Shown piece by piece: positions 4,450 to 11,177 of a stretch of DNA of 64,000 bases (its first letter is position 1; each line of letters starts with the position of its first letter). Under the pieces are notes generated by a model that made no database searches, was not told the DNA's origin, and saw only the letters and a program-made list of their open reading frames with translations. The stretch is from Pararhizobium capsulatum DSM 1112. GTDB taxonomy: Bacteria > Pseudomonadota > Alphaproteobacteria > Rhizobiales > Rhizobiaceae. Location of the stretch: contig NZ_JAUSVF010000002.1 of NCBI RefSeq assembly GCF_030814475.1, forward strand, positions 682,001-746,000, written 5' to 3'. The translations under genes and the position numbers were made by a program.

Positions 4450-4796
4450 CCGCAACACTACAACCCTTCGCGTCAACCCGAAGAATTTCAGCTCATCCTT
4501 ATCGCGAAAATTCACATCTGCAGCGAATTATACTGCGCCGCAACAATTATATTGGCGCGATGTAAAATTTAGAATTACACGGACGTTGATAGATTGAATT
4601 TATTCAACCAGGAATTATCTATACGGGTCATAACCACGCATATTGCACACAATTTAATCATAGATCACTGAATACGCCTCGCCATAGAATACTTGTCGTG
4701 AAATCTTGAAAACTACACTCCTAATTTATAATACACCCTTGTGGTAATAAATAAGTGCGATACTGTGATGCGACGATCGCGCCACGGGTTGCCTTC
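4450..4796. other. AT-rich intergenic region without a gene
   Basis: This gap of about 350 bases is clearly more AT-rich than the flanking genes, especially 4540-4760. No convincing reading frame or terminator was seen. It holds the probable promoter of the outer-membrane/FecR/cyclase cluster. Confidence 0.6.
4706..4732 (+). promoter_or_regulatory. Candidate sigma-70 promoter for the surface module
   Basis: TTGAAA at 4706-4711 and TATAAT at 4727-4732, separated by 15 bases (shorter than the ideal 17), about 65 bases before the chosen start at 4797. The surrounding DNA is AT-rich. This is a pattern match only. Confidence 0.35.
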
Positions 4797-6182
4797 ATGC
4801 GTTATCCAATTAGGAATATCGTTTTATTTTCAACTGTATTTACGGCCTTAGCGCTTGGCACCGCCTCAGCGCAGGAGGTCACAGGCAAGAGCACGGTTAC
4901 GCCCCGCCCAGTCTCGGCCTCTCTTTCCAGCATCGAGGCGGAACGCGCCCGACTCTTCGAGCAGATGTTGGCCGATCCCTCCAATCTCGACGTCGCCTTT
5001 CGTTATGCTGCGCTTTCCTCCGAGGCCGGCGACTTGGAAGCGGCGATTTCGACCCTTGAGCGAATGCTGATTTACGCTCCGGGCCTGCCCCGGCTGCAAC
5101 TGGAACTGGGCGTGCTTTATTTCCGCCTCAGCGCCTATGACATGGCGCGGACCTACTTCAATGCAGCACTCGCCGCACCCGCTGTTCCGGAAGAAGTCCG
5201 AACCAAGATCGATACCTATATCGCCGCCATCGATGCCCGCTCCAGCGACAGCCAGTTTTCCGGCAGCTTCTCAACCGGCATTCGCTGGCAGTCGAATGCT
5301 ACGGCCGCAACAGATGCCCGCAGCATCGAAACAACCTTCTTTCCGGATCCGCTTGTCCTGAACGACAGCGCTCGCGGCGACGGCGATTTCAACGCCTATG
5401 CGGCCCTGAACCTCAGATACAGCTACGATCTCGCCTCACAGGGCGACAAGATCGAAGCCACGTTTCAGAGCTACGGAACATTGCAGGCCGAGCATACCGA
5501 AATCAACACCGGCTACGCTGAACTGCAGGTCGGGCCCCGCTTCAACCTCGAACGTTTCGGGTTGGACGACACTTCGCTTGCCGTCTACGGAATTGCCGGT
5601 GGCTATTACATCGACAGCGACTCCTATCTTTATTCGGGTGGCGTCGGCGCGGCGCTGATTACCGATCTTTCCATCACTACACGGCTCGTCTTCGGTAATG
5701 AATACCGTCGCGAAGCCTTCCAGGATTCCTTCGACCGACCGACAGCCTCTGATCGGACTGGTGATCGATACCGCAGTTCACTCACCCTGCAGCATTTCCT
5801 CTCGGGTAATGTTGCCCTGTGGGCTTCGCTGCTTGCCGATCGGCGGCTCGCCGATGTCAGTTACCTGAGCTACCAGGAATTCGGGTTGAATGTCGGTCTC
5901 AGCATCGACATGGACTCGCCGATCGCGACCCAGGCCGACCCCTGGACGCTCGGTTTCGCGCTTGGCTACGCCAACCGAAACTACGACAGCCCGGATCCGA
6001 CCTATAGCCTCGACACCGAGCAAGAGGACAACGAAGCCTATGCAGAGCTTTCGCTTCTGGTTCCCTTCAAGGAAAACTGGGAGTTTCAGACGGTTCTTGG
6101 CTACCGCAACGTCAATTCAAACTACGATATCTACAGTTACGACAATATGAGCGCGTCGCTTGGCGTGGTGAGACGGTTTTAG
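4797..6182 (+). CDS. TPR-beta-barrel outer-membrane protein, Slam/type XI translocator-like
   Basis: Predicted outer-membrane protein of 461 residues. The start at 4797 gives a clean signal peptide (MRYPIRN, hydrophobic stretch, cleavage after ASA at residue 25); an earlier in-frame start at 4755 would bury it. Residues about 45-150 form TPR-like helices (LEAAISTLERMLIYAPG, then LQLELGVLYFRLSAYDMA). From about residue 160 to the end, alternating beta-strand segments rich in Tyr/Trp/Gly close with VVRRF, an aromatic C-terminal residue as in outer-membrane barrels. TPR plus a DUF560-like barrel is the architecture of Slam/T11SS translocators, which export TbpB-like lipoproteins and soluble cargo. 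The next gene encodes just such a C-terminal domain. I recognise the architecture rather than a strong sequence match. Confidence 0.55.
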   Translation: MRYPIRNIVLFSTVFTALALGTASAQEVTGKSTVTPRPVSASLSSIEAERARLFEQMLADPSNLDVAFRYAALSSEAGDLEAAISTLERMLIYAPGLPRLQLELGVLYFRLSAYDMARTYFNAALAAPAVPEEVRTKIDTYIAAIDARSSDSQFSGSFSTGIRWQSNATAATDARSIETTFFPDPLVLNDSARGDGDFNAYAALNLRYSYDLASQGDKIEATFQSYGTLQAEHTEINTGYAELQVGPRFNLERFGLDDTSLAVYGIAGGYYIDSDSYLYSGGVGAALITDLSITTRLVFGNEYRREAFQDSFDRPTASDRTGDRYRSSLTLQHFLSGNVALWASLLADRRLADVSYLSYQEFGLNVGLSIDMDSPIATQADPWTLGFALGYANRNYDSPDPTYSLDTEQEDNEAYAELSLLVPFKENWEFQTVLGYRNVNSNYDIYSYDNMSASLGVVRRF

Positions 6183-6193
6183 GGGGATCGCAG

Positions 6194-8914
6194 ATGATAT
6201 CTCGCACGAAGATGATGATGCTGATCGGTGCCGTCGCGCTGACGGGTCTCCCCTCGCCGCTTCTCGCTCGCTCGGTCGGCGTCGCCTCAGCCGTCAATAC
6301 GGCAGCCACAGGCACTGCACCTTCCGGCGGTGTTCGCACGCTGACGCTCGGCGACAATATTATTTTCAACGAGCGCATCAAAACCGATTCCGTCGGCCTG
6401 CTGCAGATACTTCTTGCTGATGGCACGTCGTTTACGGTCGGACCGAACTCCGATCTCACCATTGATCGTTTCGTCTACGATCCGGATACCGGCAACGCTG
6501 AAGTCGCAGCGACCATGACCAAAGGTGTCTTCCGCTTCATCGGGGCAAAGACGTCGAAATTTGCCGGTGGCGTGAAGCTCAATTCGCCAGTCGGTACGAT
6601 CGGCATTCGCGGCGCTGTCGCCGATTTCACGATTCCGGGCGACGGCGGCGAAAGCCGCGTCGACATGATCTTCGGGAACGAGCTGACCCTCACAGCGCCA
6701 AATGGTGCCACCCAGCGGGTCTACGAGCCGGGGTATTCCATCGTGGTGTCGGGACAGGGCGGTCACGGGGGGACTATGAATGTCGAAAAGACCCCGAAAG
6801 GCGCGAGCACGATCATCCAGGCTGCCTTGACCGGCAAGCCCGGAACCTCGGGTGGATCTCCCAACAAGCCAAAAAATGACGACGCGGCGACCATGGCGCC
6901 CTCGAATTCGGCCATGAACCCGAACATCGCCAATCCACCTATTCCCGTGGCAAGACCGGCTCAGGCCGAGGCCGATGCGGTGACGCAGGATGGAAGCCGC
7001 GATGTCGCGACGAAGAATATCGATGAGGAGATTGACGCCGAGGAACCGCCGCCTCAACCACTTCCGGAAACAGTTTCCGTCAGGGTGCTGACAGCCGACG
7101 CAACCTACGATACGGACGGAGGCGTTGTCTCCGACCCCGGCGAGGTTGGCCTCATCGGCGGCTCCGAGACGGCTGACCAGACAGTGGTTCTCGACGTCTC
7201 CGCAACAGATGGCACCGGCACCCACGGCGATCTGGTCCTGCCGGTCTATGCGCAGACCGATTTCAGCGAGCATGTCATTTCCGCTGCGGATGGCTATACC
7301 ATCGCCGGCGTGCCGCTGAGTGGCAAGGTCTATGGAGGAGCAGACGGATTTGCCGCTTATCTCATGGCGATAGACGGCGACCTCACCGACCCGCTCATTG
7401 CCATTGCCGGCACTCCGACAAAGAATATGAACGTGATGCGCAATAGCGACGTGCGCACCTACTCGTTCACCAAGGACATGCTGCAGAACGCCGCCATTCC
7501 ATTCGCACTGGCCAATGCCTTGCCGATCAGCGACAGTTCTGCTTCCGTATCGGATTTCCATGTCATAGAGCCGGGAGACGCTGGGTCGATCAAATTCCTG
7601 CAGACATCGCTCCTCATCAGCGGAAAGGGGGCCGATCAGGTCAGTGAGATCGGCGTCAACGTCGGCGAATTCTCCGATAATAACGGTGTCTACACGGTCG
7701 ACTTTGGCCGACGGGGCAGTGTGAAAGGCTCATCCACGGAAATTGCCCGCACATTTCGAGGGGGTATCACCACTCAAGCGGGCGGGACGGGCGGAAACGA
7801 GATTTTCGGCTCGAACGGCCAGAACTTCGTTCTCGGCACCGACTCCGAAACCAATGATTACTATAACAACAGCTCCGGCGACTTCAGCGGGGGCAAACCT
7901 TTCGGAACGTTGCATGTCTTCAATCTCGAGCAGGAGCAGACACTCTCGGACTATCTGAGCGAAACGGCATCCACCCGCCTCCTTGCAGACAAATCGCCCT
8001 TGCGCGGCTTCGCGGCGGGATTGGAACAGGGGACCCGCCGTGACGAAACTCAATATACTTTCAACTCGATCGGCCGGAACCCCGACGACCTCTATCTGGA
8101 GTTCGACGGCAGCGGCAACGCGCTCGGTGGCGAGTTGACGGTCGGCACGCCGGGCACCACGCTTTCCGTCGCCTTCGGCAAGGGCGTCAAAGGCAACACC
8201 GAAGGCGGCGCATCGACCTACATCGACGACAACAACTTTGCAGCGACGAACAATCGTAGCCGCACGCGCACCAACCTGCGCGATATCGATACCGCAGGAA
8301 ACGTCGTCACCGAGTTCCTGCCTGTCAAATCCACGAACAATGCCACCTATTTCGTTTCTGGCGACGCCACCTCCCAGGGGAGCGTGCTTCCCGGCGGTAA
8401 ACTGTGCGATTGCGCATTCCTCGAATGGGGCTGGTGGGGCACGCAGATCAACGCCTCTTCCAACCCTGACGCAACCGACCCACAGCTTCGCAGCACGGTT
8501 CATCTGGGCACGTGGGTTGCCGGCGACATCACCAGCAATGTCGAGCTCGGAACATTGGCCGGCACGACGGGCACATACGACGGCAAGGCAATCGGCACGG
8601 TTCTGGCCAACTCGTCGAGCTACATAGCCTCCGGCGACATGGCCATGAGCTACGATTTCGGAGCCCGCAAGGGCTCGATGGCGCTATCGAACTTCGACGG
8701 CCACAACTTCAATGCTTCAGTCAACGGCCAAAGCGGCCGCGACGCGACATTCTCCGGCGCGGTGTCGTCAAGCGCCAATGATTCCTTCGGAACGATCAAC
8801 GGTGCCTTCGTCAACGACGGGCGCAAGATCGCCCAGGGCGTGGCCGGTGACTTCAGCCTGGGGGCTGGTGATAGCTGGTCGGCTGTTGGTATTTTTGGGG
8901 GCTCGCGTCGATAG
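6194..8914 (+). CDS. Exported FecR-domain protein with TbpB-like C-terminal barrel
   Basis: Large exported protein of 906 residues with an N-terminal signal peptide (hydrophobic MMMLIGAVALTGL, likely cleavage near LAR at 26). A FecR domain follows: DGTSFTVGPNSDLTIDRF at about 75-92 and PVGTIGIRGAVADF at about 132. A Pro/acidic linker lies near 270-295. The C-terminal third carries a TbpB-like beta-barrel pattern: MSYDFG near 819, SNFDGHNF, then GTINGAFV, GVAGDFS and a terminal VGIFGG. A CxC pair precedes EWGWWG near 740. TbpB-barrel domains are typical T11SS/Slam cargo, so the upstream barrel protein may move it across the outer membrane. FecR beside a CHASE2 cyclase is a recurring pairing. 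No lipobox was seen. Confidence 0.65.
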   Translation: MISRTKMMMLIGAVALTGLPSPLLARSVGVASAVNTAATGTAPSGGVRTLTLGDNIIFNERIKTDSVGLLQILLADGTSFTVGPNSDLTIDRFVYDPDTGNAEVAATMTKGVFRFIGAKTSKFAGGVKLNSPVGTIGIRGAVADFTIPGDGGESRVDMIFGNELTLTAPNGATQRVYEPGYSIVVSGQGGHGGTMNVEKTPKGASTIIQAALTGKPGTSGGSPNKPKNDDAATMAPSNSAMNPNIANPPIPVARPAQAEADAVTQDGSRDVATKNIDEEIDAEEPPPQPLPETVSVRVLTADATYDTDGGVVSDPGEVGLIGGSETADQTVVLDVSATDGTGTHGDLVLPVYAQTDFSEHVISAADGYTIAGVPLSGKVYGGADGFAAYLMAIDGDLTDPLIAIAGTPTKNMNVMRNSDVRTYSFTKDMLQNAAIPFALANALPISDSSASVSDFHVIEPGDAGSIKFLQTSLLISGKGADQVSEIGVNVGEFSDNNGVYTVDFGRRGSVKGSSTEIARTFRGGITTQAGGTGGNEIFGSNGQNFVLGTDSETNDYYNNSSGDFSGGKPFGTLHVFNLEQEQTLSDYLSETASTRLLADKSPLRGFAAGLEQGTRRDETQYTFNSIGRNPDDLYLEFDGSGNALGGELTVGTPGTTLSVAFGKGVKGNTEGGASTYIDDNNFAATNNRSRTRTNLRDIDTAGNVVTEFLPVKSTNNATYFVSGDATSQGSVLPGGKLCDCAFLEWGWWGTQINASSNPDATDPQLRSTVHLGTWVAGDITSNVELGTLAGTTGTYDGKAIGTVLANSSSYIASGDMAMSYDFGARKGSMALSNFDGHNFNASVNGQSGRDATFSGAVSSSANDSFGTINGAFVNDGRKIAQGVAGDFSLGAGDSWSAVGIFGGSRR

Positions 8915-8960
8915 GTGACGCGACTTTCGCGCCACAGGCTCCGGGCAGAAACGGCATATC

Positions 8961-11177
8961 ATGAGGCTTCCATATGTTCGGCTGAAGCGAAACTGGCGCG
9001 AAACGCTGATTGTTTGGCTCTATGGCATGGTTGCGCTGGTCGCCTGCCTATCCGCCGCCGTCTATACCCAAACCGTTCTCGACCGGCTGACATTCCTGGT
9101 GTTCGATGTCTACCAGCGTGTTCAGCCCAGGCCGGAAACCGGCGCGCCGATCGTCCTGGTAGACATTGACGAAACCTCGATCAATGCGCTTGGCCAATGG
9201 CCATGGCCGCGCACGGTGCTGGCCGACATGGTCAACCGATTGAACGAGATGGGCGCTGCGGTGATCGCCTTCGACATGGTGTTTCCCGAGCCCGACAGAA
9301 CGTCGCTCGACCGTGTTGCCGAAGACCTCAAGCGCGCGGGCGTCACGATACAGGTGCCGCCTGGCGCGCAAGCCAACAATGATATCGTGTTCCGAGATGC
9401 GATCGCAGCTGCAAACGTTGTGACGGGCATCGCAATCACCGATGAAAGCGACGGCGGCTTGCCGAAACCGAAAGCCGGCTTCGCTTTCGGCGGGGAGGAT
9501 CCTCGTACTTTTCTCGCGGGGCGGCGGGGCGGCCTCGGCAATCTTCAGATGCTGGATGACGCTACGAAAGGGATCGGCTTCTTTTCCTTTCCACCAAGCC
9601 CGGACGGCATTATCCGCGAAATTCCCGTCATTACCCGCGTCGGTGATGCCCTTTACCCAGCTCTCTCCATCGAAGCCTTGCGCGTTGCGCAGGGCGCCAG
9701 CGGCTTCATTTTGCGAACCGCCAGTGCAAGCGGCGACGACAGCGCCGGCCAACAGGCGTTGACCGCCGTCAAGGCCGGTGACTTCGAGCTAGCGACAGGC
9801 CCGCAAGGCGAATTCTGGATCTACTACTCAACGCTGCCGGACCTGATGACCATCCCCGCAGCCAAGCTGCTGCAACCGCTGCCCGACGCCAGCCTCACCG
9901 AGCGCCTAAACGGCGCGATCGTCATCGTCGGCACCAGTGCGATCGGGCTGCGCGACATCGTGGCAACGCCCGTTGCGGCGAGCATGCCCGGGATGCGCGT
10001 GCATGCGGAAATCCTCGACCAGATCATCGGCGGCACTTTTCTGTCCCGACCGGATTGGGCAAAAGGTGCGGAAGTTGCTCTCGCCTTCACCCTCGGCGTG
10101 CTGCTGATCATATTCGTGCGCGGGGCCGGTGCGCTGACGGGTGCCGCAATCGCGATCTTCTTCATTGCGGCGGCAGCAGCCACGTCGTGGTACGCCTTCA
10201 GCACCTGGCGGATCCTGCTCGACCCAATCCTGCCGGCAGCAGCCGTCGGTTCCGTTTTTTCCGTGACCATGCCCGTATTGCTGCTGCTGACCAGCCGCGA
10301 AAAAAAATTCGTGCGCTCGGCGTTTTCGCTCTATCTTGCACCTTCTCTGGTCGAACGGCTCGCGGAAGATCCTTCGATGTTGTCGCTTGGCGGAGAGCTT
10401 CGGGAACTCACCGTGCTCTTCTGCGACATCCGAAGCTTCACCTCGCTTTCCGAAAAACTCGACCCTCAGGCGCTGACCACGCTCCTGAACAACTTTCTCA
10501 CACCAATGTCGGACGTGCTTCTCAAGTCCGAAGCGACGATCGACAAATATATGGGTGATGCCATCATGGCGTTCTGGAACGCGCCAATGGAGATTATGGA
10601 CCACCGCCGCCGCTCATGTCTTGCCGCTCTGAAGATGCTGCAGGCGCTTGACACTCTCAACCGTCAAAGGGGCTATAATCTCCGGGTCGGTATCGGCCTC
10701 AACACCGGCGATTGCTGTGTTGGCAACCTCGGTTCGTCGCAGCGTTTCAGCTATTCGGCGATCGGCGACGGCGTCAATGTCGCCTCCCGCATAGAGGGCC
10801 TGTGCAAGGAATATAGTCTCCCGGTTCTCCTCTCCGAAACGGTCGCCGAGGGGGCGGAAGACCTCGCTATCCTGCCGGTCGATATGGTGCAGGTTACCGG
10901 ACGCGAGGTGCCGGTCACGCTTTTCACGATATTGGGGGACGCGGATGTCGCCGCACGATCCACATTCCATCTACTGCACGCGGCCCATACGCGTTTTCTC
11001 AGCGCCTATCGTGCGGCCGATTTCGATCGGGCTCGCGCCGCCCTCGAACAGGCGATGGGTCTTGGAGAGGAAAGCCTGAAACAGCTTCATGAGCTCTACG
11101 CGAAACGCCTATCGGCGCTTGAATCGGACGGGGTTCCCGAAGGGTGGAACGGCGTTTTCGTCGCTCTGCACAAGTAG
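8961..11177 (+). CDS. CHASE2-domain class III adenylate cyclase
   Basis: Membrane adenylate cyclase of 738 residues. One N-terminal membrane helix (about 16-37) is followed by a periplasmic CHASE2 domain starting near VLVDIDETSINALGQWPWPR. Three further helices lie near 370-445, then the cytoplasmic cyclase domain (about 480-660). Metal-binding Asp489 (FCDIRSF) and Asp533 (KYMGDAIMAF) are present. So are the ATP-selecting pair Lys529 and Asp603 (AIGDGVN), with Asn606 and Arg610 for transition-state binding. All key residues are intact, predicting cAMP rather than cGMP synthesis. The gene starts 46 bases after the FecR gene. The periplasmic sensor could respond to the FecR protein or to envelope state; that is inference. 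Confidence 0.88.
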   Translation: MRLPYVRLKRNWRETLIVWLYGMVALVACLSAAVYTQTVLDRLTFLVFDVYQRVQPRPETGAPIVLVDIDETSINALGQWPWPRTVLADMVNRLNEMGAAVIAFDMVFPEPDRTSLDRVAEDLKRAGVTIQVPPGAQANNDIVFRDAIAAANVVTGIAITDESDGGLPKPKAGFAFGGEDPRTFLAGRRGGLGNLQMLDDATKGIGFFSFPPSPDGIIREIPVITRVGDALYPALSIEALRVAQGASGFILRTASASGDDSAGQQALTAVKAGDFELATGPQGEFWIYYSTLPDLMTIPAAKLLQPLPDASLTERLNGAIVIVGTSAIGLRDIVATPVAASMPGMRVHAEILDQIIGGTFLSRPDWAKGAEVALAFTLGVLLIIFVRGAGALTGAAIAIFFIAAAAATSWYAFSTWRILLDPILPAAAVGSVFSVTMPVLLLLTSREKKFVRSAFSLYLAPSLVERLAEDPSMLSLGGELRELTVLFCDIRSFTSLSEKLDPQALTTLLNNFLTPMSDVLLKSEATIDKYMGDAIMAFWNAPMEIMDHRRRSCLAALKMLQALDTLNRQRGYNLRVGIGLNTGDCCVGNLGSSQRFSYSAIGDGVNVASRIEGLCKEYSLPVLLSETVAEGAEDLAILPVDMVQVTGREVPVTLFTILGDADVAARSTFHLLHAAHTRFLSAYRAADFDRARAALEQAMGLGEESLKQLHELYAKRLSALESDGVPEGWNGVFVALHK

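Follow-up and report, generated by a model that had tools for sequence, protein, structure and literature searches.

How a protein on the bacterial surface might have its state reported across two membranes is the question raised by a three-gene operon of Pararhizobium capsulatum DSM 1112. It lies in a stretch of 64,000 nucleotides (contig NZ_JAUSVF010000002.1, positions 682,001 to 746,000), which is called the window in the following and to which all positions refer. A first-pass annotation of the letters had described three genes running in one direction, and these proved to be intact open reading frames (ORFs) on the plus strand with intergenic gaps of 11 and 46 nt. They encode a Slam/type XI secretion system (T11SS)-type outer-membrane protein (OMP; 4797 to 6182, 461 aa from the ATG, or 475 aa if an alternative GTG upstream at 4755 is used), a presumably exported FecR-TbpB-lobe protein (6194 to 8914, 906 aa), and a CHASE2 adenylate cyclase (8961 to 11177, 738 aa). 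What is new about this operon is that it joins two known kinds of systems, the exporter-cargo pairs of T11SS and the receptor cyclases of the FecR-CHASE2 type. The balance of the evidence tips slightly toward a relay from the outer membrane to the cytoplasm with cyclic AMP (cAMP) as the output.

The first part of the question is whether the OMP is a translocator. Slam OMPs are defined by an N-terminal TPR domain and a 14-strand barrel (PMC5449769, excerpts), and a layout of this kind had been read from the letters. A Pfam scan of the OMP returned TPRs and SlipAM/DUF560 (PF04575), the latter with 22.5 bits at a cut-off of 22; this was the sole PF04575 match in the genome, and 34 of 85 OMP homologues matched the family at an E value of 0.01 or below. 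Behind a signal peptide recognised by inspection, the AlphaFold model (pLDDT 91.4) contained six helices followed by 14 strands, predicting a periplasmic TPR domain (residues 43 to 148, positions 4923 to 5240) and an outer-membrane beta-barrel (residues 152 to 460, positions 5250 to 6176). The TPR domain was the most conserved part of the OMP, with a mean pairwise identity of 66% versus 44% for the barrel. When the OMP family profile was aligned by hhalign with the OMP of locus L194, a canonical Slam (SlipAM 67.5 bits, TPR_Slam 43.3 bits) that adjoins a TbpB_B_D lipoprotein, the match covered TPR and barrel with a probability of 99.3% and an E value of 1.2e-20 over 369 columns. The genome that carries this L194 pair (at G082:C19:28420-29420) is 2.6 Mb in size and belongs to the same order. 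No entry for Slam came up in the VIA rows of the OMP, which carries no weight against a Slam fold. Judged by profile and model together, the OMP very likely belongs to the Slam family, and the early assignment held.

A Slam cargo consists of a handle and a C-terminal eight-strand barrel and is encoded by a gene adjoining that of the OMP (PMC8406197, excerpts). In the FecR-lobe protein, the model (pLDDT 89.2) suggests that both parts are present in residues 594 to 906, as a handle-like part (residues 594 to 735, positions 7973 to 8398) and a C-terminal barrel with conserved CxC and W-G-x-W motifs (residues 736 to 906, positions 8399 to 8911). A TbpB-like part had been proposed for residues 690 to 906; the likeness was upheld, while the extent had to be revised to about 594 to 906, which is the region covered by the VIA rows. 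The best matches of this region in the PDB were TbpB, LbpB, NHBA, fHbp, and HpuA, the lobe-family profile matched the fHbp profile with an E value of 1.8e-5, and among 34 relatives searched at E values up to 1, FHBP_C was found in 11 and TbpB_B_D in 8. The profile check of the window protein against pfam01298, from which the first-pass annotation had hoped for confirmation, reported no match at E values up to 10, in a search in which the HMMER filters discard most weak matches. Unfolded TbpB was translocated across a membrane by Slam1 in vitro (PMC9090332, excerpts), and export of the lobe by the OMP is probable from the sequence relationships of both partners.

The N-terminal two-thirds of the same protein have a different build. 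A single hydrophobic segment (residues 7 to 25) provides a signal-peptide-like start, followed by a head with a FecR fold (residues 27 to 214, positions 6272 to 6835), within which the N-terminal FecR domain already noticed at first was matched by Pfam at residues 61 to 161 with 31.6 bits. A Pro-rich, presumably disordered linker (residues about 220 to 290, positions 6851 to 7063; pLDDT below 50 at 220 to 226 and 228 to 280) leads to a beta-rich middle region with a confident model (residues 293 to 590, positions 7070 to 7963). This linker was long in all 64 homologous frames measured, where the profile matches of FecR and of the middle region were 85 or more residues apart, and the middle region was duplicated along with the lobe barrel in loci L057 and L109. 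Another FecR protein, P0068, carries two extra TbpB_B_D stretches, one of them at residues 501 to 634, in front of the usual lobe. The protein has no lipobox Cys; its only Cys residues, C738 and C740, were conserved in 85 of 86 rows each, together with W745 (82), G746 (84), and W748 (84), all at the start of the lobe barrel (residues 738 to 748, positions 8405 to 8437). To our knowledge, this pattern is not one of TbpB or fHbp.

Mean pairwise identity within the FecR-lobe protein was 52% for FecR, 38% for the lobe barrel, 32% for the middle region, and 25% for the handle as the least conserved part. Conservation was thus higher in the presumed periplasmic parts, TPR and FecR, and lower in the parts presumed to be outside, which fits the proposed topology. 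The chances that the FecR head stays inside with the lobe outside appear to be about even.

The third gene product is, on the evidence of its sequence, a class III adenylate cyclase with intact catalytic motifs, as had been stated at the outset. Pfam assigned 182.7 bits to CHASE2 (residues 29 to 380, positions 9045 to 10100), a sensor domain placed in the periplasm by two flanking hydrophobic stretches at residues 14 to 40 and 366 to 445, the second of which has room for about three helices. Guanylate_cyc scored 80.4 bits at residues 481 to 650 (positions 10401 to 10910), and the closest solved relatives of this domain were adenylate cyclases, with E values of 1.2e-32 and 3.7e-28. In class III cyclases, catalytic roles fall to the Asp, Lys, Asn, and Arg of the motifs. 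Both motif Asp residues (FxDIR and GD), the Lys (DKY), and the Asp, Asn, and Arg of GDxVNxxxR were kept in 36 of 36 cyclases of the lobe class, including that of the window.

Do these three components belong together? The OMP profile was used as bait on genome contigs, with two TPR peptide patterns, and the best 80 of 269 relatives were retained, so that the sample leans to near relatives. In 73 of the 80 loci, the OMP gene is followed directly by a FecR gene in the same orientation. Where at least 3.5 kb of downstream sequence was available (74 loci), this FecR was present in 67 and a lobe barrel in the same frame in 63. Anywhere in the fetched stretch, FecR occurred in 77, the lobe in 67, and a CHASE2 cyclase in 39 of the 80 loci; 38 loci, from seven named families and 14 genera, combined OMP, lobe, and cyclase. 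The neighbourhood survey agreed with the triad first seen in the window. With at least 6 kb downstream (67 loci), the cyclase followed on the same strand in 33. A survey of 101 genomes, our own included, yielded the OMP at an E value of 1e-15 or below in 14 genomes and none in the 25 other genomes of the same genus; the lobe was matched by a search with the FecR protein in 9, one of which (G045) is split by contig ends, and the OMP adjoined the lobe in 9 of 9. The hypergeometric probability of this association was 1e-9 with relatedness ignored.

FecR and CHASE2, which had been remarked upon as frequent neighbours, were indeed so: in 61 genomes, 84 of 103 CHASE2 matches had a FecR match no more than 5 kb away when about 0.6 were expected at random, although the number of independent linkage events is smaller than 84 because many of the pairs are orthologues. 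In our own genome, each of the three CHASE2 matches had a FecR within 5 kb. The present operon is one of these three pairs; a further pair (C1:483-487 kb) includes a 1251-aa frame of the size of NsrA, and another (C1:986-988 kb) is located beside a CRP-like protein; of nine cNMP-binding matches in this genome, one adjoins this second FecR-CHASE2 pair. Control of CHASE2 by the FecR head is judged probable.

This linkage also bears on two other explanations. The FecR protein may be an ordinary T11SS cargo that is fully exported, for instance as a binding protein or an adhesin, next to a cyclase that is merely co-regulated or co-inherited. The missing lipobox would make it resemble the soluble cargo class described in the excerpts of PMC8406197, and the OMP-lobe loci of the Stappiaceae are without a nearby cyclase. 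However, FecR tracks CHASE2 far beyond this operon, and within the protein it is FecR that is best conserved, unlike what would be expected for the head of a surface effector, which makes this explanation quite unlikely. Alternatively, the operon may be a sensor of export quality, in which an excess of lobe or FecR stuck in the periplasm, instead of a ligand, switches the cyclase. The anatomy would be the same and the conserved TPR could read cargo loading, but the OMP was present in only six of the 61 genomes in which FecR and CHASE2 were so commonly paired. This indicates that the basal circuit is independent of export, and a sensor of this kind appears the least probable of the explanations considered.

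A tree of 91 CHASE2 cyclases provided a further line of evidence, to be used as support only since it was built quickly and has long branches that were flagged. Lobe partners had been split by gene position beforehand, and 11 of 101 rows were excluded, namely nine duplicates, the truncated L054, and L180 of unclear class. The grouping followed the class of the FecR partner. NsrA partners (17 rows, one of them a duplicate) formed one clade with a support of 99, and a set of 37 rows, also with a support of 99, took in 35 of the 36 lobe partners whose cyclase gene follows downstream in the same orientation; the five whose cyclase gene is upstream or on the opposite strand were all outside it. The other two members of this set were L044, a FecR-only locus with a diverged OMP, and L061, with an OMP plus a FecR-only protein.

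The nearest known parallel of the operon is the NsrA-CyaK system of Sinorhizobium meliloti. NsrA is described as an outer-membrane receptor protein required for the cAMP response of CyaK and CyaD1/D2 to a plant signal (PMC7529298 and PMC13001267, excerpts), and cyaK is located directly 3' of nsrA. Both systems possess FecR, TPR, and an outer-membrane barrel beside a CHASE2 adenylate cyclase. In contrast to the separate genes of the window, NsrA is one chain of 1200 aa, its partner cyclases are in their own clade, and a TbpB lobe was not seen in it. The genome of P. capsulatum also contains an NsrA homologue (39% identical over 99%), a single chain with the size of FecR, TPR, and barrel together.

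This parallel suggests that the operon may be a split NsrA: the OMP would be a receptor or porin and not a translocator, FecR, TPR, and barrel would sense jointly, the lobe would serve as a periplasmic plug or adaptor, and the link to the cyclase would be real. The equal parts list of NsrA beside cyaK speaks for this possibility, as do family OMPs paired with lobe-less FecR proteins and the diverged TPR-barrel OMPs of G044 and G064, whose partners are FecR-only and whose neighbouring CHASE2 cyclase is transcribed divergently. However, homology of the OMP to Slam extends through both TPR and barrel, whereas the alignment with NsrA was confined to the TPR, so the NsrA barrel was rejected as an OMP homologue. 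Moreover, all 9 of the 101 genomes with the lobe have the OMP adjoining it, and the best structural matches of the lobe are T11SS cargo of the TbpB type. A split NsrA consequently seems unlikely, albeit less so than the two explanations above. An operon that works like NsrA-CyaK, with a type XI secretion pair as its outer-membrane part, is the somewhat preferred analogy.

Other known systems share fewer parts. Relative to the Slam/T11SS systems (PF04575, DUF560, with TbpB, fHbp, HpuA, or hemophilin as cargo), TPR, 14-strand barrel, and adjacent handle-barrel cargo are alike, but in the window the cargo bears a FecR head followed by a long linker, is without a lipidation signal, and is encoded beside a cyclase. 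Cargo predictions for OMP clusters 1 and 3 are given in PMC12282271, and the term FecR is absent from its main text (excerpts). Campylobacterota are reported to possess clusters of a FecR outer-membrane protein, a TPR protein, a phosphodiesterase, and a CHASE2 cyclase (PMC9239204, excerpts); a TbpB lobe or a Slam relation is unmentioned in these excerpts, and since the comparison is by description only, the two may be closer than they appear. An operon of LysM-FecR and a CHASE2 kinase occurs in Burkholderia (PMC5192318, excerpts), and a FecR-CHASE2 link was reported for S. meliloti (PMC5498481, excerpts). FecR/PupR anti-sigma factors differ in that the FecR head of the window is N-terminal in a protein with a signal-peptide-like start. 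Classic FecI-FecR-FecA signalling was rejected, as neither a sigma factor, ECF type included, nor a TonB-dependent receptor was found among the ten neighbouring genes scanned. RcsF, which forms complexes with OMPs that leave one part at the surface and another in the periplasm (PMC4942254, excerpts), resembles the proposed sensor in having parts on both sides and in its complex with OMP barrels, as an analogy and not a relative. In the open-licence PMC literature, no paper was found that connects a Slam/T11SS protein with a FecR-CHASE2 pair; the terms FecR, TbpB, and Slam co-occur in a paper on siderophores (PMC11233812).

In the relay proposed here, the Slam-type OMP would pass the C-terminal handle and barrel lobe across the outer membrane, as expected from its family membership. 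The N-terminal FecR head would fold and remain periplasmic, and the disordered linker would tie it to the lobe at the surface, possibly via the barrel of the OMP. Binding of a ligand to the lobe, or failed export of the lobe, would alter what the FecR head offers to TPR and to the periplasmic CHASE2. CHASE2, which precedes the cyclase domain in the observed domain order, would then switch the cytoplasmic cyclase, and cAMP would act via CRP-type proteins. More tentatively, the secretion substrate itself may be the transmembrane sensor, exported C-terminus first via its own Slam-type barrel and halted by the folded FecR head. Lobe, threaded linker, and head would in this case reach across the outer membrane, within the translocon or alongside it, the CHASE2 cyclase would read a surface ligand or the export state, and FecR-only relatives with low-complexity tails, many of them ending in a Cys pair, would be a tail-threaded version.

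Several observations weigh against this relay. The SlipAM score of the OMP exceeds the cut-off only marginally. Six of 41 lobe-partner cyclases were outside the main set of 37 rows in the tree. No cyclase was present in the fetched stretch of 29 of the 67 lobe loci, some of them on short contigs. These include all 17 lobe loci of the Stappiaceae, which means that coupling to the cyclase is not obligatory. Strong-scoring family OMPs also pair with lobe-less FecR proteins, in L061, L104, and G100 (in the last case about 2 kb upstream of the OMP), and the association of OMP and FecR thus does not require a lobe. The FecR protein SMc02177 of S. meliloti, encoded near cyaD1, was dispensable for the plant-signal perception tested (PMC5498481, excerpts). 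Finally, the Clr box (HGTYHCNNNNGRWACW, at most one mismatch) was missing from the stretch upstream of the operon.

The FecR-only proteins (20 distinct genes) have tails of 58 to 250 residues in which polar residues, Gly, and Pro abound. Either these tails are threaded, as the linker of the lobe proteins would be, or the OMP has a function other than export. A Cys pair ends 12 of the 20, each near a family OMP (L040, which is the gene of L201, L041, L061, L078, L083, L090, L092, L097, L111, L117, L120, and L202); the terminal pair was absent from L042, L044, L093, and L104, with an OMP nearby, and from L043, L045, L046, and L047, without one. A possible role of the pair is in threading or in disulfide capping. 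In L119, L126, and L127, which are without FecR, four ORFs were scanned and no alternative cargo appeared.

Some loci had further genes nearby. In the two Stappiaceae loci scanned, L070 (7965-9611) and L078 (7885-9696), the OMP-lobe pair comes after a 5'-nucleotidase/metallophosphoesterase gene and a cyclase was not found; the ORF cluster of this gene recurs in 21 loci. In L117 (11744-18157, minus strand) and L119 (3120-9674, minus strand), the gene next to that of the OMP, on the opposite strand, encodes a protein of about 2,150 aa with SIR2-like and TPR domains. The triad is plasmid-borne in Paracoccus aminophilus pAMI5 (L130, 2258-10158), where the divergent upstream gene encodes a cyclic-nucleotide-binding patatin-like phospholipase, a possible cAMP effector. 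On plasmid p1 of Shinella sp. H4-D48 (L129), ABC and C39-peptidase-type genes precede the triad and NHLP bacteriocin export genes follow it.

The AT-rich promoter region claimed in front of the operon was half borne out. The stretch from 4451 to 4796 (plus strand), a presumed promoter from its composition, had an AT content of 50 to 72% per 50-base bin over 4451 to 4750, but the promoter scan gave zero promoter-like sites in it. The promoter and terminator scans were overall at chance level, and a sigma-70 promoter and terminators were accordingly not assigned to the operon. Regulation by Clr was also dismissed, with 13 box matches in the window versus 13.5 expected. Unrelated genes surround the operon. 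Those upstream encode two permeases as well as enzymes of sugar-acid type, namely a dehydrogenase, an enzyme with a TIM barrel, and a protein of the SMP-30 type; downstream are AraC, PadR, ABC-ATPase, LysR, and cupin genes. An island of foreign composition was rejected, since the GC content of the operon (0.56 to 0.62 in 2-kb stretches) was close to that of the flanks.

The link between secretion and signalling made by the first-pass annotation is supported at the level of sequence comparison. It connects type XI secretion with CHASE2 cyclase signalling, a field in which the way a signal crosses the outer membrane is unsettled, and offers a reason for the linkage of FecR and CHASE2. Nine of ten T11SS OMP clusters were reported to be without a characterised protein (PMC8406197, excerpts), and FecR-lobe proteins are predicted here as a cargo class of the alphaproteobacterial T11SS. 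The operon also gives a frame for NsrA-CyaK, by which S. meliloti controls infection, and suggests a bacterial surface protein whose state may be reported into the cell.

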